This document shows positions 53,104 to 60,985 of a stretch of 64,000 bases of DNA, one piece after another (position 1 is the first letter of the stretch; each line of letters starts with the position of its first letter). The notes under the pieces were generated by a model. That model made no database searches and was not told the DNA's origin. It saw nothing but the letters and a program-made list of their open reading frames with translations. The translations under genes and the position numbers were made by a program. This DNA is from Acidobacteriota bacterium (GTDB taxonomy: Bacteria; Acidobacteriota; Vicinamibacteria; Vicinamibacterales; JAKQTR01), in NCBI GenBank assembly GCA_026393755.1, contig JAPKZO010000028.1, positions 1 to 64,000 of the forward strand. Reading direction: 5' to 3'.

Positions 53104-54798
53104 ATGGTTCGATTCCATTCTATCCTCGCCGCGATTTTCGTCCTAGGAACCGCGGCGCAGGCGCCGGCGCAGCCGCAACCCGCATCCACGCAGGCCCTGC
53201 CTGCCAGTTTCACCGTCTTCATGTCGGGTGGCGCGATAGGTTCCGAGCAGGTGACCGTTACCGCATCGCCAGAAGGATGGACCATCAGGGCCACGGGCCG
53301 GCTTGGTGCGCCGATCAGCCTGTCGACGTCCCGCTTCGAACTCCGGTACGACCGTGATTGGAAGCCGCTCTCCCTCGAAATTGACGCGGCGTTGCGCGGA
53401 CAGCCGCGAATGCTCCGAACGGCGTTCGCGAACGGGAAGGCCACCAGCAGCATCATCCAGGCCGGTCAGGAATCCCAGAAGACCGACGACGTGGCCATCG
53501 ACACGATGGTGCTGCCGAACATGTTCTTCGGGGCCTTCGAAGCACTCGCCCTGCGGCTGGCGGCGGTCAGTCCCGGAGGCCAGCTCAAAGCCTACGTCGC
53601 GCCTGAGGCTGAAATTGCGATCCGCCTCGACACCATCAGTGACGAACGCATCCAGACGGCGTCGCGGATGATCGTCGCAAAGCGGTATGACATCACGTTG
53701 ATCAATCCCAAGGGGACCGTGGCGGCCGAGGTGTGGGCGGACGAAGGCAGCAGGCTGGTTCGTTTCCGCGTGCCGGCCCAGGGACTCGATGTGGCCCGCG
53801 ATGATGTCGCGGCAGTCTCGTCGCGGGTCGAGCGGATGGCACGACCGACGGACGAACAAACGCGCATCCAGGCCAGCGGTTTCACGCTTGCCGCCACTGT
53901 CTCCAAGCCGGCCGCGGCAGGAACCGGAGCGGCCATCCGGTTGCCGGCGGTGGTCCTTGTGCCGGGGTCCGGCCCGGCCGATCGCGACGAGACCGTCTCT
54001 GGTGTGTCGATCTTCGCGCAGTTGGCCAACGCGATCGCCGACGCGGGCTTCCTGGTGATTCGTTACGACAAGCGCGGGATCGGACAAAGCGGCGGCCGAG
54101 ACGAGTCGGCGACGTTGGTGGACTACTCAGACGATGTGCGCGCGGTCGTGAGGTACCTGACGAAGCGCAAAGACGTGGATCCGAAACGCGTCACACTCGT
54201 TGGCCACAGCGAGGGTGGACTGGTCAGCATGCTGGCGGCATCCGAGGAAAGGAAGAATGTCGCGGCGCTCGCGCTCATCGCAACACCCGGCACAACCGGC
54301 GCGGATCTTGTGCTCGAGCAGCAGCGTCACCTGCTGGGCGGAATGAACCTGTCCGACGAGGAGAAGCAACGGAGGATGGGTCTGCAGAAGCAGATCCATG
54401 CGGCGGTCGTTACCGGCAATGGGTGGGAAGCCATCCCGCCCCCGTACAGGCGACAGGCCGACACGCCGTGGTTCAAGAGCTTCCTCACGTTCGACCCCGC
54501 CAGGATCATGCGCAAGGTGCCACAGCCGATCCTCATCGTCCAGGCCGATCGCGATCGGGAGGTGATGGCTCGCCACGGTCAACTGCTGGCCGGCATGGCG
54601 AAAGCACGCAAGAACAACCCGGTCTCGGAGCTTTCGGTGGTGGAAGGCGCCAATCACCTGCTGGTGCCGGCCGCGACCGGGGAGATGGACGAGTACGCGT
54701 CGCTGCGGGACCGCGCTGTCAGCCCCGGGCTGATTGCCGCGCTGGTCGGCTGGCTGAAGGACACGCTTCATGTGGATATTGCGCGCCCTGGGCGTTGA
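53104..54798 (+). CDS. Exported alpha/beta hydrolase with N-terminal beta domain
   Basis: This is a 564-residue protein. The start at 53104 gives a signal peptide (SILAAIFVLGTAAQAPAQ); no good ribosome site is visible, and ATG 53089 is an alternative. Residues about 30-240 are a beta-rich region of unknown family that includes FMSGGAIGSEQVTV and FELRYDRDWKPL. The hydrolase domain follows: LPAVVLVPGSGPADRDE, the strand FLVIRYDKRGIGQSGG, the nucleophile in LVGHSEGGLV, the acid in VQADRDREV and the His in EGANHLLVP. This C-terminal arrangement is like exported acyl-esterases and prolyl-peptidase relatives. The substrate is unknown. Its end overlaps the FHA gene by 29 bp. Confidence 0.82.
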   Translation: MVRFHSILAAIFVLGTAAQAPAQPQPASTQALPASFTVFMSGGAIGSEQVTVTASPEGWTIRATGRLGAPISLSTSRFELRYDRDWKPLSLEIDAALRGQPRMLRTAFANGKATSSIIQAGQESQKTDDVAIDTMVLPNMFFGAFEALALRLAAVSPGGQLKAYVAPEAEIAIRLDTISDERIQTASRMIVAKRYDITLINPKGTVAAEVWADEGSRLVRFRVPAQGLDVARDDVAAVSSRVERMARPTDEQTRIQASGFTLAATVSKPAAAGTGAAIRLPAVVLVPGSGPADRDETVSGVSIFAQLANAIADAGFLVIRYDKRGIGQSGGRDESATLVDYSDDVRAVVRYLTKRKDVDPKRVTLVGHSEGGLVSMLAASEERKNVAALALIATPGTTGADLVLEQQRHLLGGMNLSDEEKQRRMGLQKQIHAAVVTGNGWEAIPPPYRRQADTPWFKSFLTFDPARIMRKVPQPILIVQADRDREVMARHGQLLAGMAKARKNNPVSELSVVEGANHLLVPAATGEMDEYASLRDRAVSPGLIAALVGWLKDTLHVDIARPGR

Positions 54799-55084
54799 AC
54801 CTGAGAATGCCCTGACGTTCCGGCTGATGCCGGGTCACGTCAAGACGGCCGGCCGCTCGTCGCGGTCGGACTTCATCATCGATGCGCCGCTGGTGTCGAG
54901 GTTGCACTGCCGGTTCACGGTGTCGCCGGAGGGCATCGTCGAGCTGCAGGATCTCGACAGCACGAATGGCACGTGGGTCAATGGAGACCGGGTGCAGCGA
55001 GCCACGCTCGCGGAAGGGGCGGTGTTGACGATCGGGCGCGCCGAGTTGATGCTCGAGCGCGACGATCGGGGCCATCACTCCTGA
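54770..55084 (+). CDS. FHA domain protein
   Basis: This small 104-residue protein consists only of a forkhead-associated domain, which binds phosphothreonine peptides. The signature is KTAGRSSRSDFIID, PLVSRLHCRF and LQDLDSTNGTWVNGDRV, with the Ser and Asn that contact the phosphate. The reading frame starts 29 bp inside the upstream hydrolase gene and its last 10 bp overlap the end of the convergent MBL gene. A Ser/Thr kinase-like gene lies 2 kb away, but that protein lacks catalytic residues, so the source of phosphopeptides must be elsewhere. Confidence 0.85.
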   Translation: MWILRALGVEPENALTFRLMPGHVKTAGRSSRSDFIIDAPLVSRLHCRFTVSPEGIVELQDLDSTNGTWVNGDRVQRATLAEGAVLTIGRAELMLERDDRGHHS

Positions 55085-55716
55085 AGAAACGGGTTGTTGC
55101 GCCTTTCCTCGCCGATCGTCGTCTGCGGCCCGTGCCCCGGGTAGACGACGGCGTCATCCCCGAGGGCAAACAGCACCGTCCGAATCGAATTGATCAGCGT
55201 GTCGGCGTCGCCGCCTGTCAGATCGGTCCGGCCGATCGATCCCGCAAATAGTGAGTCGCCGACGAACACGTCGCGGCCGTTGGTGCCGGCGGGGCCGACC
55301 TGCAGGGCCACGCCGCCCGGGCTGTGGCCGGGCGTATGGTGCACGCGCACCTCGTACCTGCCAAATGCGAGCGGCACGCCGGCCTGATAGAAGAAATCCG
55401 GCTTCGGCGGCGGCTCGACCGTGTAGCCGAACATCAGCCCCTGCTGCACGGCAAGATCGTAGAGAAAGAGGTCGTCGTGATGAAGCCCGATGGGGGCGCC
55501 GGTGGCCCGCTTCATCCTGGCGACGCCGCTCACGTGATCCATATGGGCGTGCGTCAGCAGGATGTAATCGACGGTCAGGCGGCCGCGTTCAATGAGGTCG
55601 ACGAGCTCCTGCGCCTCGTCTCCAGGGTCGATGACGATGGCCTTGCGAGTGGTCTCGCAGCCAAGCAGGAAGCCGTTCTTGAAGAAGGGAGCAGCGGCGC
55701 GGGTCTCGAAGAGCAT
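55075..55716 (-). CDS. Metallo-beta-lactamase fold hydrolase, glyoxalase II-like
   Basis: This is a 213-residue dinuclear-metal hydrolase. The metal motif THAHMDH is at 55-61, and further ligands lie in VHHTPGHSPGG (His), FVGDSLFAGSIGRTD (Asp) and VVYPGHGPQT (His). The short length and these motifs fit the glyoxalase II/YcbL group, which hydrolyses thioesters such as S-lactoylglutathione or similar. The exact substrate is uncertain. It is divergent from the threonine dehydratase-like gene with only 33 bp between starts. Confidence 0.9.
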   Translation of the reverse strand: MLFETRAAAPFFKNGFLLGCETTRKAIVIDPGDEAQELVDLIERGRLTVDYILLTHAHMDHVSGVARMKRATGAPIGLHHDDLFLYDLAVQQGLMFGYTVEPPPKPDFFYQAGVPLAFGRYEVRVHHTPGHSPGGVALQVGPAGTNGRDVFVGDSLFAGSIGRTDLTGGDADTLINSIRTVLFALGDDAVVYPGHGPQTTIGEERRNNPFLQE

Positions 55717-55749: not shown

Positions 55750-56724
55750 ATGAGGCTGACGCACGTCTTCGCAGCACGGCAGCGCATCGCTCCGTACATC
55801 AGGCACACGCCGCTGGTCCACTCACCGTGGCTCTCGTCGCAATCGGGCGCGACGGTCAGGTTGAAGCTCGAGTCGCTCCAGGTGACCAACTCGTTCAAGG
55901 CTCGCGGCGCGGTCAACGTCGCTGCCGCACGGCTCGAGCGCGAAGCCGGCGATGTCGGGCGATCGCGCTTCCTCGTGACCGCGTCGGCAGGCAATCACGG
56001 ACGGGCCATGGCCTACGCGTGCGAGCGTCTGGGGTTGCGGCTGGTGGTCTTCACGCCGAAGCACGCGCCGCGCGCCAAACTGGATCCGATTTCGGCGCAT
56101 GGCGCGGATCTGCGGGCGGTCGCGTCAAACTACGAAGAGGCTGAATTGCTGGCGAAGCAATTCGCGGCCGCCGAGCGGATCACGTACATCTCGCCGTACA
56201 GCCACCCGGACGTGATTGCCGGCGCGGCCACGATCGGGATCGAGATCCTCGAAGACTGGCCGGAGGTTGAGACGATTATGGCTCCTGTCGGAGGGGGCGG
56301 ATTGGTGAGCGGCATCGCCCTCGCCATCAAGGCCGCGTCAGCGCGCGTCCAGGTGATCGGCGTCGAAGCGGAGGCCTCCCCGGCCTTCTCCACCTCGCTC
56401 GCCGCGGGACGCATCACCGAGGTCACGGTGAAGCCGACAATTGCCGACGGGCTGGCCGGAAATATGGATCCCGACTCTGTCACCTTTGATCTGGTTCAAC
56501 GCTACGTCGATCGGGTCGTCGTCGCACCTGAGCGCGCGATCGAGGAAGCGGTGCGCGGGTTGATGACGCACGAACATCTCGTGGCGGAGGGAGCCGGGGC
56601 AGCCGCCGTGGCCGCGCTCGCCGAAGGTTTTCAGGTCACGGGACGGAAGGTCGCGGTGGTGCTGTCGGGAGCCAACATCGATTCGGCGAGGCTTGGCGCG
56701 CTGCTCATGGATCGCCTGGAGTAG
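55750..56724 (+). CDS. Threonine/serine dehydratase-like PLP enzyme
   Basis: This is a 324-residue fold-type II PLP enzyme. The Schiff-base Lys is Lys50 in LQVTNSFKARGA. The phosphate-binding loop is APVGGGGLVSGIA and the SAGNHGRAMAYA motif is present. At 324 residues it lacks the regulatory ACT domain of biosynthetic IlvA, so it resembles the catabolic threonine ammonia-lyase or serine racemase group. It converts Thr to 2-oxobutyrate or Ser to pyruvate. TAGAAT (55736-55741) ends 8 nt before the ATG, suggesting a very short leader; GGAG at about 13 nt upstream is poorly placed. Confidence 0.9.
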   Translation: MRLTHVFAARQRIAPYIRHTPLVHSPWLSSQSGATVRLKLESLQVTNSFKARGAVNVAAARLEREAGDVGRSRFLVTASAGNHGRAMAYACERLGLRLVVFTPKHAPRAKLDPISAHGADLRAVASNYEEAELLAKQFAAAERITYISPYSHPDVIAGAATIGIEILEDWPEVETIMAPVGGGGLVSGIALAIKAASARVQVIGVEAEASPAFSTSLAAGRITEVTVKPTIADGLAGNMDPDSVTFDLVQRYVDRVVVAPERAIEEAVRGLMTHEHLVAEGAGAAAVAALAEGFQVTGRKVAVVLSGANIDSARLGALLMDRLE

Positions 56725-56759: not shown

Positions 56760-59285
56760 CTATCGGACGGCTGATTGTTCCAGGAGCCCTTCGAGGAGTC
56801 TGGCCGCGTCATCCCGGGTGCGGGCGTAGCTGGCGTCGAGCGCCGCCACCGCGGCGATGACGCCGGGATTGGCGGTGACGTTGCGCCAGGGGAAGAGCTG
56901 CTGGTGGATTGCCGCACGCGGGCTCATGACGCCGTTGGTCGCGCCCCACATCCGCAACACCCGATCAGAGCCGGCCGCGCGCTCGATCCACGCCGCTGTC
57001 CGTGCGGCGTCATGAAGCGCCGCCGCGGTCATCGCGGCGCAGCGGGCCAATGGCGCGGGATCTTCAACCTTTCCAGCGTGTGTCAGGATTTGCTCTCCGA
57101 GTCTGCGGCCGTCGGTGCGGTCGGCGCCGGATCTCGGGATGCCGGCGAGCATCGCCCACGGGTCGCAGGCGGTGGGGTACAGCCGCGTAATGTTGATGAT
57201 GGCGGCGGCCGCATCGGCCGTGCGGCCGTCGAGCAGCAGTGAGGACGCAAGCATGAGCGCGGCCGGGGGCAGATCCGCTCCCGACCTTGCCGCCCCGCGA
57301 ACGGCCGCGTTCCCAGTCGGCGGGCGCGCAATCCGGACGCGGTCCCGCAGGGTGTCCCACCACGGCAATGAGGGTGCCAGCGCCTGACCTCGAGCTGCCT
57401 CCGTCAGGCCCTGTTCGAATTCACCCTGCGCGATGTAGCCGGTGGCGAGTTGATAGTGCGCCAGTGGCGATACCGGATCGAGCTCGACGACGCGCCTGGC
57501 GAACCTCATCGATCTGGCGGGATCGACATCTCTCAACAGGTCCGCAATCGCCGAGTACGCGGCGACGTACGATCGATCGATCTCGATCGCCCGGCGCAGT
57601 CGCGACAGCGCTTCGTGCAACGTTGGCGACGACAGGCCGAGGGCAAACTGGACCGATGCGGCATCCGGATCGGCCGTCGCGGCCTGCTCGGCGGCTTCGC
57701 GCATCTGGCTCGACACTTCCGCAAATCCGAGGCGCCCCTCGAACGCGGCACCGATCGACAACGCCTCGACCAGTCCGGTCTGCGCCTCGAACATCGAGGA
57801 GTCTGCCGCGATCGCGCCTTCGAACAGCTGGATGGCACGGCTGGCGTCCTGCGCGGCCAGCGCCTCGCGCGCCTGCAAGTAGGCGTCGAACGCTGCCGGG
57901 GCGACGATCCGGAGGGCGGCGCGATCGGTCGTGGACGTTTGAGCGAACGCGATGCCGAGGCGGCCGGAGATGTCCCTGACCATCCGCGTCTCGAGCGCGA
58001 TGATGTCGCCGGTCTCCGCGGTGTAGCTCCGATTCCAGATCGTCTCGCCGTCGGCCAGGTCAATCAGGCTGATGCTGACCTCCAGCCTCTTCCAGTCCGG
58101 ATCGGATGGCGAGATCACTCCGGTCAGCGCCACGCTCGCCTCCACGTCCCGGGCCACCGACTGAGGCGATCGGCCGGCAAATGCCCGAATCGACGATCGC
58201 CCGAGCGTGGTCACGCCCGTCGTCTGACCGAGACGCATCATCAGGTCTTCGGCCAGTCCGGGCCCGAAGTACGGCCGCGTGACCTCTCCGCCGCCGATGG
58301 TGAAGGGCAACGCCACCACGAGCGGGGTCGGCCGTGGCCCGAAGTGCCCGTGCCAGGTCTTCAGCAGAACGTTCTGCCAATGCCAGACCGCCAACGCCGC
58401 GCCAGCAACCAGGAAGAGACTCACCAGTCCCATTCGGACCCATCGTGCGCCCTGTCGCGGAGCTGGCTCGGCCGGCTCGGTGGCCGCATCGCGGGCCCGC
58501 ACCGCCTCAGACGTAGCACGCAGCGCGGCGGCCATTTCGGCGGCGCTCTGGTGCCGGTCGAAAGGGTCCCTGGCGAGCGCCTTGGCGACGATGGCGTCAA
58601 GGGAATGCGGCACCGCTGGGTTGGTCAGACTCGGCACCGTGCGGGGAGATTGCCCGAAACCGGGACCGGTGCCGCCTGGGTTCGACCCCACGAACGGCTC
58701 ACGTCCCGTGAGCATCTCGCAGATGACCGCACCGAACGCGAAGATGTCCGTCCGGTGGTCGACCGGCAGACCCTGGATCTGTTCTGGCGACAGATAGGCG
58801 ACCCCGGCGGTGTCCTGCGGCTGGCTTCGTTCGGCGAGGCCAAAATCCAGGACCTTCGCGCGGCCTTTCGACGTGACGCAGATGGACGTGGGAGTCAGTG
58901 CGCCGTGGATGAGGTTGCAGGCGTGTGCCTCTGCAAGCGCATCCGCCACCTGCACGGCGAGGTCCAGCGCGCGACGGACATTGAGCGCCCGGCCCGATTC
59001 CAGCGCCGACAGCGTCTCGCCCGCCACGAACTCGTACACCAGGTAGACGCGGCCCTCATGCTCGCCCACTTCGAACAGCGTGGCGATGTTGGAGTGGGAG
59101 AGCGCCGTGTACGGCCTGATGCTGTCGACCAGGCGCGTGCGATGCAGCGGGTCGGGAATGACATCGCCCAGCACGCGGACCGCCACGGTACGGCCGATTC
59201 GCGTATCGCGCGCCCGGTAGACGGTTCCTTGTCGACCGGTGCCGACGACAGCGAGAATGTCGTAGTGGCCGATTGCCTGACTCAT
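56760..59285 (-). CDS. Kinase-like protein (probable pseudokinase) with TolB-like and TPR regions
   Basis: This is an 841-residue membrane protein. Residues 7-260 have the Ser/Thr kinase fold: the Gly loop is VVGTGRQGTVYRA, and DFGLAE and AYLSPEQIQG are present. Key catalytic residues are replaced: the ATP-binding Lys of the VAVK motif is Arg37 (TVAVRVL), and the HRDLKPxN loop reads HGALTPTS (His127 to Ser134), so Asp, Lys and Asn are Ala129, Thr131 and Ser134. A transmembrane helix lies at about 285-302. Then comes a TolB/FlgO-like domain (PLVVALPFTIGGG, YFGPGLAEDLMMRL, about 318-440) and TPR-type helices to the end. It is 119 bp downstream of an ECF sigma factor and may sense or scaffold rather than phosphorylate. 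Confidence 0.85.
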   Translation of the reverse strand: MSQAIGHYDILAVVGTGRQGTVYRARDTRIGRTVAVRVLGDVIPDPLHRTRLVDSIRPYTALSHSNIATLFEVGEHEGRVYLVYEFVAGETLSALESGRALNVRRALDLAVQVADALAEAHACNLIHGALTPTSICVTSKGRAKVLDFGLAERSQPQDTAGVAYLSPEQIQGLPVDHRTDIFAFGAVICEMLTGREPFVGSNPGGTGPGFGQSPRTVPSLTNPAVPHSLDAIVAKALARDPFDRHQSAAEMAAALRATSEAVRARDAATEPAEPAPRQGARWVRMGLVSLFLVAGAALAVWHWQNVLLKTWHGHFGPRPTPLVVALPFTIGGGEVTRPYFGPGLAEDLMMRLGQTTGVTTLGRSSIRAFAGRSPQSVARDVEASVALTGVISPSDPDWKRLEVSISLIDLADGETIWNRSYTAETGDIIALETRMVRDISGRLGIAFAQTSTTDRAALRIVAPAAFDAYLQAREALAAQDASRAIQLFEGAIAADSSMFEAQTGLVEALSIGAAFEGRLGFAEVSSQMREAAEQAATADPDAASVQFALGLSSPTLHEALSRLRRAIEIDRSYVAAYSAIADLLRDVDPARSMRFARRVVELDPVSPLAHYQLATGYIAQGEFEQGLTEAARGQALAPSLPWWDTLRDRVRIARPPTGNAAVRGAARSGADLPPAALMLASSLLLDGRTADAAAAIINITRLYPTACDPWAMLAGIPRSGADRTDGRRLGEQILTHAGKVEDPAPLARCAAMTAAALHDAARTAAWIERAAGSDRVLRMWGATNGVMSPRAAIHQQLFPWRNVTANPGVIAAVAALDASYARTRDDAARLLEGLLEQSAVR

Positions 59286-59404: not shown

Positions 59405-60055
59405 TCATGCCGCGGCTACGCCGGCCCGGATCGCCCGGTGCATCTCCAGGCCGCCCCGGAATTCGGTCAGGCGAGCCCGGAGAAACGCGCGGCCACGGTG
59501 GAGCCGCGACTTGAGGGTCTGTTCCTTGATGCCAAGCCTCGCGCTCGCCTCTTCGGTCGATAACCCCTGGATATCCCGCAGAATGACCGGCACGCGGTAA
59601 ATGCTGGGAAGTTCGGGCAACGCCCGCGCCAGCTTTCGGCGCATCTGGCCGCGCAGCAGCGCCTCATCGGCCATCCGCGACCAATCCGGGGTTTCGTGAC
59701 GAGCGTGGCCGCCGCGCTCTTCGACATCGGCCATCAGAGCGTGTTCAGGCACTTCGAAATGTGACGCGCTTCGCCGGGAGCGGAGTCTCGACATCGCGGC
59801 GTTGAACGTGATGCGGTAGATCCACGACGACAACGCGGCATCCCCGCGAAACGCATCAACGCGCCGGTACACTTTCATCAGCACGTCTTGCGCGATCTCC
59901 TCGGCATCTTCCGGGGTCTTGACGTAGCGCAGGGCCAGCTGCTTGATCCGCGACCGGTAAATGGTGTCGAGCTCATCGAGCGCCGATTCGTCGCGCCCAC
60001 GCATGCGCCTGACCAGCTCCGCATCCTTGACGTTTTGAGCAAGAACACTTGCCAT
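59405..60055 (-). CDS. RNA polymerase ECF-type sigma factor
   Basis: This is a 216-residue sigma-70 family protein. Region 2 is ALRYVKTPEDAEEIAQDVLM with VYRRVDAFRGDAALSSWIYR. Region 4 is ALPELPSIYRVPVILRDIQG, then LSTEEASARLGIKEQTLKSRLHRGR, which binds the -35 element. The start at 60055 has GGAGAAGG 5 nt upstream. A good sigma-70-type promoter lies about 85 bp before it. The downstream kinase-like protein is a likely partner, as ECF factors are often controlled by a membrane protein; no anti-sigma gene with a zinc-finger motif is present. Regulation through the kinase-like protein is inference. Confidence 0.93.
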   Translation of the reverse strand: MASVLAQNVKDAELVRRMRGRDESALDELDTIYRSRIKQLALRYVKTPEDAEEIAQDVLMKVYRRVDAFRGDAALSSWIYRITFNAAMSRLRSRRSASHFEVPEHALMADVEERGGHARHETPDWSRMADEALLRGQMRRKLARALPELPSIYRVPVILRDIQGLSTEEASARLGIKEQTLKSRLHRGRAFLRARLTEFRGGLEMHRAIRAGVAAA

Positions 60056-60222: not shown

Positions 60223-60885
60223 TCAGTTTGTGTTTGTGCGTTGAAAGACGTCGCAGAACGCCGCAATCAGGCGATCTTCCACTTCGTCAATCCGCAGGTC
60301 GCGCCCGGTGAGCCGCCCCAGCGAGGTCACACCCCGGTCGGAGATTCCGCACGGGACAATCAGCTTGAAGAAGTCGAGATCTGTATTCACGTTGAACGCA
60401 AAGCCGTGGCTGGTCACCCAGCGCTGGATGCGGACGCCAATCGCCCCGATCTTCTCGGCCCCGACCCATGCCCCGGTCAGCCCCTGGATTCGCCGGGCGG
60501 CGAATCCGTAGTCGCCTGTCACTCGAATCATCACCTCTTCAAGATCCCGCACGTAGCGATGGACGTCGCACCGGTCGGGCTTGAGGCTCAGAATCGGGTA
60601 GCCGACGATCTGGCCGGGACCGTGATAGGTCACGTCGCCGCCGCGGCCGGTCTCGTGGATCTCGACTCCCAGTTCGGCAAGCCGTCCGGGCGTAGCCAGC
60701 ACGTGCTGCCGGCTCTCCCCTGCCTTGACGCCGAACGTCAGCACGTGCGGATGCTGCAGCAGGAGCAGTTCGTCGCCGACGTCGCCGGCGATGCGCCTCG
60801 CGACCAGTGCCCGCTGAAGCTCGAGGCCTTCGGCGTAGGAGATCAGTCCCAGACGTCGGACGGTGAGCGGGCGGGTTGACGACAT
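60223..60885 (-). CDS. lipB: Octanoyl-ACP:protein N-octanoyltransferase LipB
   Basis: This 220-residue enzyme starts the making of lipoyl cofactor by moving octanoate from ACP to the lipoyl-domain Lys. The motifs are LLLQHPHVLTFGVKAG, TGRGGDVTYHGPGQIVGYPI, the Lys in VGAEKIGAIGVRI and the catalytic Cys in IVPCGISDRGVTSL. It lies downstream of genes for dihydrolipoyl dehydrogenase and a lipoyl-bearing E2, so the operon makes the enzyme and its cofactor together. LipA is not in the window. A short copy of the structured repeat sits just upstream of its start. Confidence 0.95.
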   Translation of the reverse strand: MSSTRPLTVRRLGLISYAEGLELQRALVARRIAGDVGDELLLLQHPHVLTFGVKAGESRQHVLATPGRLAELGVEIHETGRGGDVTYHGPGQIVGYPILSLKPDRCDVHRYVRDLEEVMIRVTGDYGFAARRIQGLTGAWVGAEKIGAIGVRIQRWVTSHGFAFNVNTDLDFFKLIVPCGISDRGVTSLGRLTGRDLRIDEVEDRLIAAFCDVFQRTNTN

Positions 60886-60899
60886 CGCTGATTGATGAC

Positions 60900-60985
60900 T
60901 GCCGGCGGGACGCCGGTTCCTCCGCGTCTCTGCCTGTTCCTTCCTGGTTCGAGGGGCCGCTCCGGAAACCGCCATCCCGCCGGCA
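60900..60985 (-). repeat. Structured dispersed repeat, copy D (core deleted)
   Basis: Long arms (60900-60920 and 60964-60985) pair with two mismatches and one bulge. Between them only the two conserved ends remain (CGAACCA and GAGACGCGGA on the minus strand), so most of the core is missing yet the arms still match. It lies between the E2 stop and the lipB start within one operon. Confidence 0.75.

Follow-up and report, generated by a model that had tools for sequence, protein, structure and literature searches.

What does a membrane protein do with a kinase fold that has lost most of its catalytic residues? The question is raised by a gene in the window (the whole stretch of 64,000 nucleotides that was analysed here), which encodes a protein with a kinase-fold domain, a membrane helix and tetratricopeptide repeats (TPRs), and which lies beside the gene for an ECF sigma factor (Table 1). 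Bacterial pseudokinases are described, in the available part of PMC12599244, as largely unexplored by experiment and mostly of unknown function, and a literature search of limited scope found no published pseudokinases of this locus and none from Acidobacteriota.

Table 1. Features of the pseudokinase locus, in window coordinates.
Feature	Position	Strand	Basis
Gene of the 841-aa pseudokinase (kinase fold in the cytoplasm, a single membrane helix, TPRs and a possible TolB-like region)	56760..59285	-	single ORF, ATG start
Kinase-fold domain, residues 5-265	58491..59273	-	Pfam; AlphaFold2; Foldseek best = PknB
Arg37 codon replacing the beta3 (VAIK) Lys	59175..59177	-	
HGALTPTS, residues 127-134, replacing HRDLKPxN	58884..58907	-	
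DFG kept, residues 147-149	58839..58847	-	
Membrane helix, ~residues 282-303	58377..58442	-	hydrophobicity
Possible TolB-like extracytoplasmic region, residues 316-455	57921..58340	-	weak CadC-model match; conserved in long orthologues
TPR region, residues 475-625	57411..57863	-	TPR_11; consensus TPR chains of PDB
ECF sigma factor gene without anti-sigma gene; part of lipB block, probably no partner	59405..60055	-	Sigma70_r2 + Sigma70_r4_2 (Pfam)
lipB-like gene, conserved neighbour upstream of sigma	60223..60975	-	LplA-B_cat; synteny
PLP-dependent dehydratase-like gene, downstream slot border	55750..56724	+	PALP; synteny
Metallo-beta-lactamase-fold hydrolase gene (named by sight), downstream slot border	55075..55716	-	synteny
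FHA-only protein, conserved in block	54770..55084	+	Pfam FHA 67.2 bits; synteny

Domain architecture and catalytic motifs

The kinase fold, membrane helix and TPRs that a first-pass annotation of this DNA had read from the sequence are all there: the Pfam Pkinase model matches at 101 bits (cut-off 31.7), the helix reaches 1.94 on the Kyte-Doolittle scale, and TPR_11 matches at 28.2 bits (cut-off 26.8). The label "TolB-like" for the region behind the helix stands as a possibility, with a weak match to a CadC model at residues 403-507 (E 0.0018) in its favour and no Pfam match found for the region. An AlphaFold2 model of residues 1-310, built on an alignment of 21 sequences (from which L017 and L039, and also L026, L035, L037, L038, L040 and L041, were left out), has a mean pLDDT of 88.4 and the two lobes of a Hanks-type kinase, and its top solved-structure matches in Foldseek are to PknB (query-normalised TM ~0.70-0.74); the C-terminal 536 residues, modelled from a single sequence, gave a pLDDT of 42.6 and are useless as a structure. 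With its fold, membrane helix and repeats, the protein belongs to the family of TPR-linked kinases.

Kinase chemistry is usually judged by four residues (beta3 Lys, HRD Asp, loop Asn and DFG Asp); of these the protein has the DFG Asp but not the other three, which makes it a pseudokinase by the sequence definition of the term (a kinase fold without at least one canonical catalytic residue). The annotation had described an intact Gly loop and DFG beside an Arg for the ATP-binding Lys and HGALTPTS for HRDLKPxN, and this is what the protein contains: the Gly loop is GTGRQG (residues 15-20), and SPE is kept as well (residues 166-168). The alpha-C Glu position, missed at that stage, is also changed. 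The pattern recurs in the window's own family (f1), whose six copies all carry Arg at the beta3 Lys, all lack the HRD Asp and all keep DFG, so that the changes in the window protein are not a matter of chance; the Arg for Lys in f1 would also fit high-GC drift. The APE Glu and the alpha-F Asp are retained in all six copies, and the Gly loop varies among them (for example, AAGSLG and GSGGHS). Since key catalytic residues are missing, standard phosphotransfer by the window protein is unlikely, in line with the earlier prediction that it would not phosphorylate by the usual route.

A conserved slot and its canonical occupants

Orthologues of the window protein were found at E <=1e-100 in 13 of the 162 genomes of the order (its own genome included), and at E 1e-90 in 5/5 own-family genomes. 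The first set of orthologues (10 genomes, 11 loci) has or shares parts of one block, ordered as Lpd, E2, LipB, sigma, other genes, kinase, PALP, MBL and FHA, and in many genomes of the order the pseudokinase gene has its slot between the lipB-linked sigma gene and the PALP/MBL/FHA genes. The order sigma-kinase-MBL is also present on L014 and L015, both Acidobacteriota contigs, the latter labelled gp6, which we take to mean subdivision 6 (Vicinamibacteria).

Fully canonical orthologues of the same architecture occupy the same slot in G039, G088 and G102, and a further canonical orthologue, in G110, adjoins the PALP/MBL/FHA genes, the kinase and sigma genes of that genome being on different contigs. 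The window's own genome also carries a canonical paralogue (C40) that aligns with residues 4-642 of the window protein. Canonical relatives both in the slot and in the same genome argue for the origin from an active TPR-linked kinase that had been proposed. The conservation of the altered residues, by contrast, holds within limits: they are altered in all own-family copies, and the outcome that the annotation had named as refuting, intact residues in orthologues, is seen in distant ones.

Besides the window, 99 sigma loci were examined (G087, with its sigma gene at a contig end, was left out). A kinase-fold ORF lies at most 7 kb downstream of sigma on the same strand in 53 of them; 24 have a bounded slot, with the downstream border gene present, in which no kinase fold was detected, although a very degenerate remnant could escape detection there; and in 22 the border gene was not found, mostly because of a contig end. 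The bounded slots without a detected fold, together with decayed-looking genes, suggest that part of the order can do without the slot function. Slot genes that are frame-split or partial, through decay or assembly errors, were seen in G048, G011, G161, G097 and G118 (L123, L162, L164, L087 and L110). Where no kinase fold was detected in the slot (for example, in G082 and G062), the block still has its FHA-only gene, which argues against a special tie to the kinase, and the FHA-only protein was rejected as a special partner on this ground.

Repeated loss of catalytic residues in the slot lineage

Slot sequences came to 55 rows, and the eight with fewer than 200 aligned residues were excluded from the trees, leaving 47; control domains of fewer than 200 residues were likewise excluded, and L181 and L192, being slot genes themselves, were removed from the controls. 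In these quick trees, many branches of which are weak, 46 of the 47 slot domains form one group, separate from the 38 control kinase domains of eight genomes, the position of G040 being unsure. Judged from these sequences, the slot is held by one orthologous lineage.

Within this lineage, all four catalytic residues are kept in 12 of the 47 rows, mainly in f5 (7 of the 12), the HRD Asp is absent in 21, and the DFG Asp is lost in 12. With the motif columns masked for these counts, the tree needs seven changes at the HRD Asp, 10-11 at the beta3 Lys and five at the DFG Asp, of which three, four and three, respectively, are forced by well-supported branches. The replacement motifs differ from family to family, with HGGLSPD in most f2 rows, HGD or HGN in three of the four f11 rows, and HGDLRP, HGDVRP or HADLRP in most f15 rows. 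Long slot proteins (~810-870 aa) are found in f1, in three f11 genomes and in four f5 genomes, and that of G036 has 657 aa; most of the others have ~276-360 aa and end soon after the helix, some of them cut by contig ends. A hydrophobic anchor behind the fold scores at least 1.6 in 44 of the 53 readable slot rows (two further rows were unreadable) and 1.44-1.59 in five more, the remaining four being fragments. That catalytic residues were lost several separate times, with fold and anchor kept, suggests a function that does without phosphorylation, and the best reading of the slot lineage is that catalysis would have become dispensable repeatedly while the fold and its membrane anchor were retained.

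Selection on the kinase fold

Constraint was estimated as dN/dS with a Nei-Gojobori script on few pairs. For the kinase domain it is 0.27 (window and G001) and 0.28 (G003a and G003b) in f1, 0.23 and 0.39 in f11 pairs (the latter from very close copies), 0.13 in f2 pairs with HGGLSP, and 0.18 and 0.15 in canonical pairs. The TPR part is tighter than the kinase part between the window and G001 (0.18 versus 0.27), the canonical pair G039-G110 shows the reverse (0.41 for the TPR part, 0.18 for the kinase), and G003a-G003b and the f11 pairs have similar or mixed values for the two parts. Mean identity is 0.565 (kinase) and 0.516 (TPR) in f1, and 0.793 and 0.496 in the canonical f5. This pattern of dN/dS and identity points to a reduced catalysis-related constraint on the kinase domain with much constraint left. 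With dN/dS well below 1, the fold and anchor are under purifying selection; that the f1 kinase domains exceed the canonical pairs would also fit partial relaxation.

A slowly decaying relic without function might be expected to show such higher values (0.27-0.28 in f1 against 0.15-0.18), as well as the split or partial slot genes and the bounded slots without a detected fold described above, but we consider this reading rather unlikely: the reading frame is open in each of the six f1 copies (one of which runs into a contig end), every part of the protein has a dN/dS far below 1, 92 of 269 positions are invariant over the six copies at an average kinase-domain identity of 56%, and one altered motif (HGGLSPD) is common to the f2 copies at a dN/dS of 0.13. 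It is also unlikely that the protein is an atypical but active enzyme, with phosphotransfer through other residues or a SelO/SidJ-like transfer. Nucleotide binding or unusual catalysis would be compatible with the DFG Asp and the GxGxxG loop of the window protein, which keeps the APE Glu and alpha-F Asp besides, and SelO too has HG at the HRD position according to the available part of PMC12599244; however, SelO retains its Lys (same source), whereas the window protein has its beta3 Lys, HRD Asp and loop Asn all altered, its Gly loop is variable in f1, and the DFG Asp itself has gone from related slot lineages.

The sigma factor neighbour

The sigma gene lies 119 bp upstream of the pseudokinase gene on the same strand, no terminator-like site was found in this region of the window, and no anti-sigma ORF adjoins the sigma gene, so that the first-pass annotation was right to describe an ECF sigma gene without an adjacent anti-sigma gene. 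An anti-sigma gene lost in the window alone was considered and rejected, since its absence is order-wide: ORFs with HxxxCxxC lie close downstream of sigma at four of the 99 loci and at none of the other 95, and only that of L161 (G014) resembles a zinc-finger anti-sigma factor.

The further suggestion that the pseudokinase may regulate this sigma factor is not supported by the comparison. The sigma gene occurs (E <=1e-45) in 100 of the 162 genomes, among them those of the 24 bounded slots without a detected kinase fold, and a gap of less than 200 bp between the two genes is confined to the window, G001 and G002. At the other occupied loci the kinase is at least 845 bp from sigma even when counted from the preceding stop, save at the contig end of G003a, where its start is ~1.5 kb away; the genes in between include an MFS gene on the opposite strand in G003 and G004, and dehydrogenase genes together with an MFS gene in G039, for example. 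The MFS gene adjoins the kinase in the f5 genome G039 also, and the sigma-kinase adjacency in f1 therefore probably arose through loss of the MFS gene. Region 2.2 of the window sigma factor reads EDAEEIAQD, and this acidic motif is kept across sigma rows as close variants of E-D-A-E-E..Q-D, the D and the Q-D being present in all 98 readable rows (one more was too short to align here). The usual neighbour of sigma is lipB wherever the upstream side is on the contig. Wide occurrence, rare close adjacency, the retained acidic motif and the lipB neighbour together assign the sigma factor to the lipB block; its closeness to the pseudokinase looks accidental, and the pseudokinase is probably not its regulator, which removes a tempting story based on adjacency.

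A known arrangement invites comparison nonetheless. In the ECF43 pairs (EcfK/PknS and EcfP/PknT), as in the window, an ECF gene lies beside a Hanks-type kinase-fold gene without an anti-sigma factor, but these sigma factors, the studied kinase-controlled kind, lack the acidity of region 2.2 and their kinase is active, as far as the available parts of the sources go (PMC8999054, PMC13147305), and the window appears to be the reverse on both counts, with no conserved adjacency to a kinase gene. Although the genes are adjacent on one strand in three genomes, most loci have no anti-sigma ORF close downstream of sigma, and a kinase-fold ORF follows within 7 kb at over half of them, regulation of the sigma factor by the pseudokinase, whether as an anti-sigma-like membrane tether or as the descendant of an ECF43-type pair, is thus very unlikely in view of the many sigma genes without a detected kinase, the intervening genes, the acidic motif and the lipB linkage.

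Some f11 genomes have, between sigma and the slot kinase, an apparent second ECF gene (identified by sight) accompanied by a zf-HC2 protein with a BNR/YCF48-like C-terminus, as on L050 (5441-6502, f11).

Comparison with known kinases and pseudokinases

In architecture, with the TolB-like region as a possible element, and in membrane helix the window protein matches the Acidobacteriota Hanks-type Ser/Thr kinases with TolB-like/TPR C-termini, and it differs from these TPR-linked kinases in lacking the beta3 Lys, HRD Asp and loop Asn. PknB, a PASTA kinase, is alike in its fold and is the top solved-structure match by both sequence and fold, but no PASTA repeats were found in the window protein, and its catalytic residues are missing. 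The pseudokinases ActPs1-3, GLW, CP1, DYD and DLHK likewise combine a kinase fold with changed motifs, and in some of them a membrane helix follows the fold; the published motif descriptions, in the part of PMC12599244 available, set the window protein's pattern apart from theirs. For the DYD family, the same source gives a model with bound ATP in which a beta3 Arg is salt-bridged to the DYD Asp. EssB/YukC, a cytoplasmic pseudokinase on a membrane protein that acts as a non-catalytic scaffold, illustrates that a bacterial membrane pseudokinase can serve in this way (PMC12599244, in part). Its motifs are all degraded, however, and it belongs to type VII secretion, no genes of which were seen beside the window gene; EssB/YukC is a functional analogue of what the window protein may be, and no relative of it by any test applied here. 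The text of PMC12599244 contains none of the terms Acidobacteri-, TPR, tetratricopeptide and TolB. The window protein adds a new variant to the known bacterial pseudokinases.

Proposed role

On balance we favour the hypothesis that the protein descends from an active kinase, has lost its catalytic residues, and now acts as a membrane-tethered, non-catalytic binding platform and not as a regulator of the sigma factor. In the conserved slot, the ancestor would most likely have been an active Hanks-type kinase whose periplasmic part was a TolB/TPR sensor; f1, and other families of the order independently of it, lost catalytic residues, with fold and membrane anchor kept by purifying selection. 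The missing residues, the orthology of the slot genes, the repeated changes, the retention of fold and anchor and the selection are seen in the sequences, and the non-catalytic platform role is inferred from them. In f1, the periplasmic TPR part may sense or bind something and so alter what the cytoplasmic fold holds. Kinase domains pair in PknB-type kinases, and the fold would most plausibly hold an active kinase of the same genome, by such pairing of kinase domains, or else a kinase substrate.

More tentatively, the slot protein may have had a non-catalytic, membrane-tethered role already while it was an active kinase, in which case catalysis, and often the whole periplasmic sensor, could be dropped repeatedly, giving anchored pseudokinases throughout the order whose conserved working part would be the bare membrane-anchored fold. 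One syntenic locus holds canonical, partly degenerate and fully degenerate orthologues, some of them with fold and anchor only, and this series makes a catalysis-free role of a kinase fold directly testable by orthologue swaps.

Other kinase-fold genes

Degeneracy is concentrated in the slot lineage: among 44 non-slot kinase genes with readable motifs from five genomes (G000, G001, G002, G024 and G039), manual reading found 35 canonical, one tandem with one degenerate domain and eight degenerate, in a comparison where the slot rows are mutually related and come partly from other genomes. This count omits the split genes L185 and L223 and includes L233 as read without its N-lobe; the initial control rows, from seven relatives, were best-scoring matches and hence biased towards canonical kinases, and four kinomes were later completed.

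In the f2 slot proteins L118, L124, L141, L146, L153 and L155, HGGLSPD is common, the DFG Asp is lost and TPRs are absent; with a dN/dS of ~0.13 in two pairs, the f2 proteins read as a stable anchored pseudokinase. Five of the eight degenerate non-slot kinases form one further conserved lineage, a second pseudokinase with HG[AS][LI]HPRD for HRDLKPxN and TGLG for xDFG, present once per kinome in five kinomes (L183, L219, L222, L232 and L235), that of the window's own genome among them (C24:12098-12817, L183:1453-3423). The L183 protein has a PEGA domain at its C-terminus, and the neighbouring gene is presumably a BshC. The same genome also has, at C7:19278-20798 (L182, L184), an open frame of 1404 aa that encodes two kinase-like domains, each of which has altered motifs.
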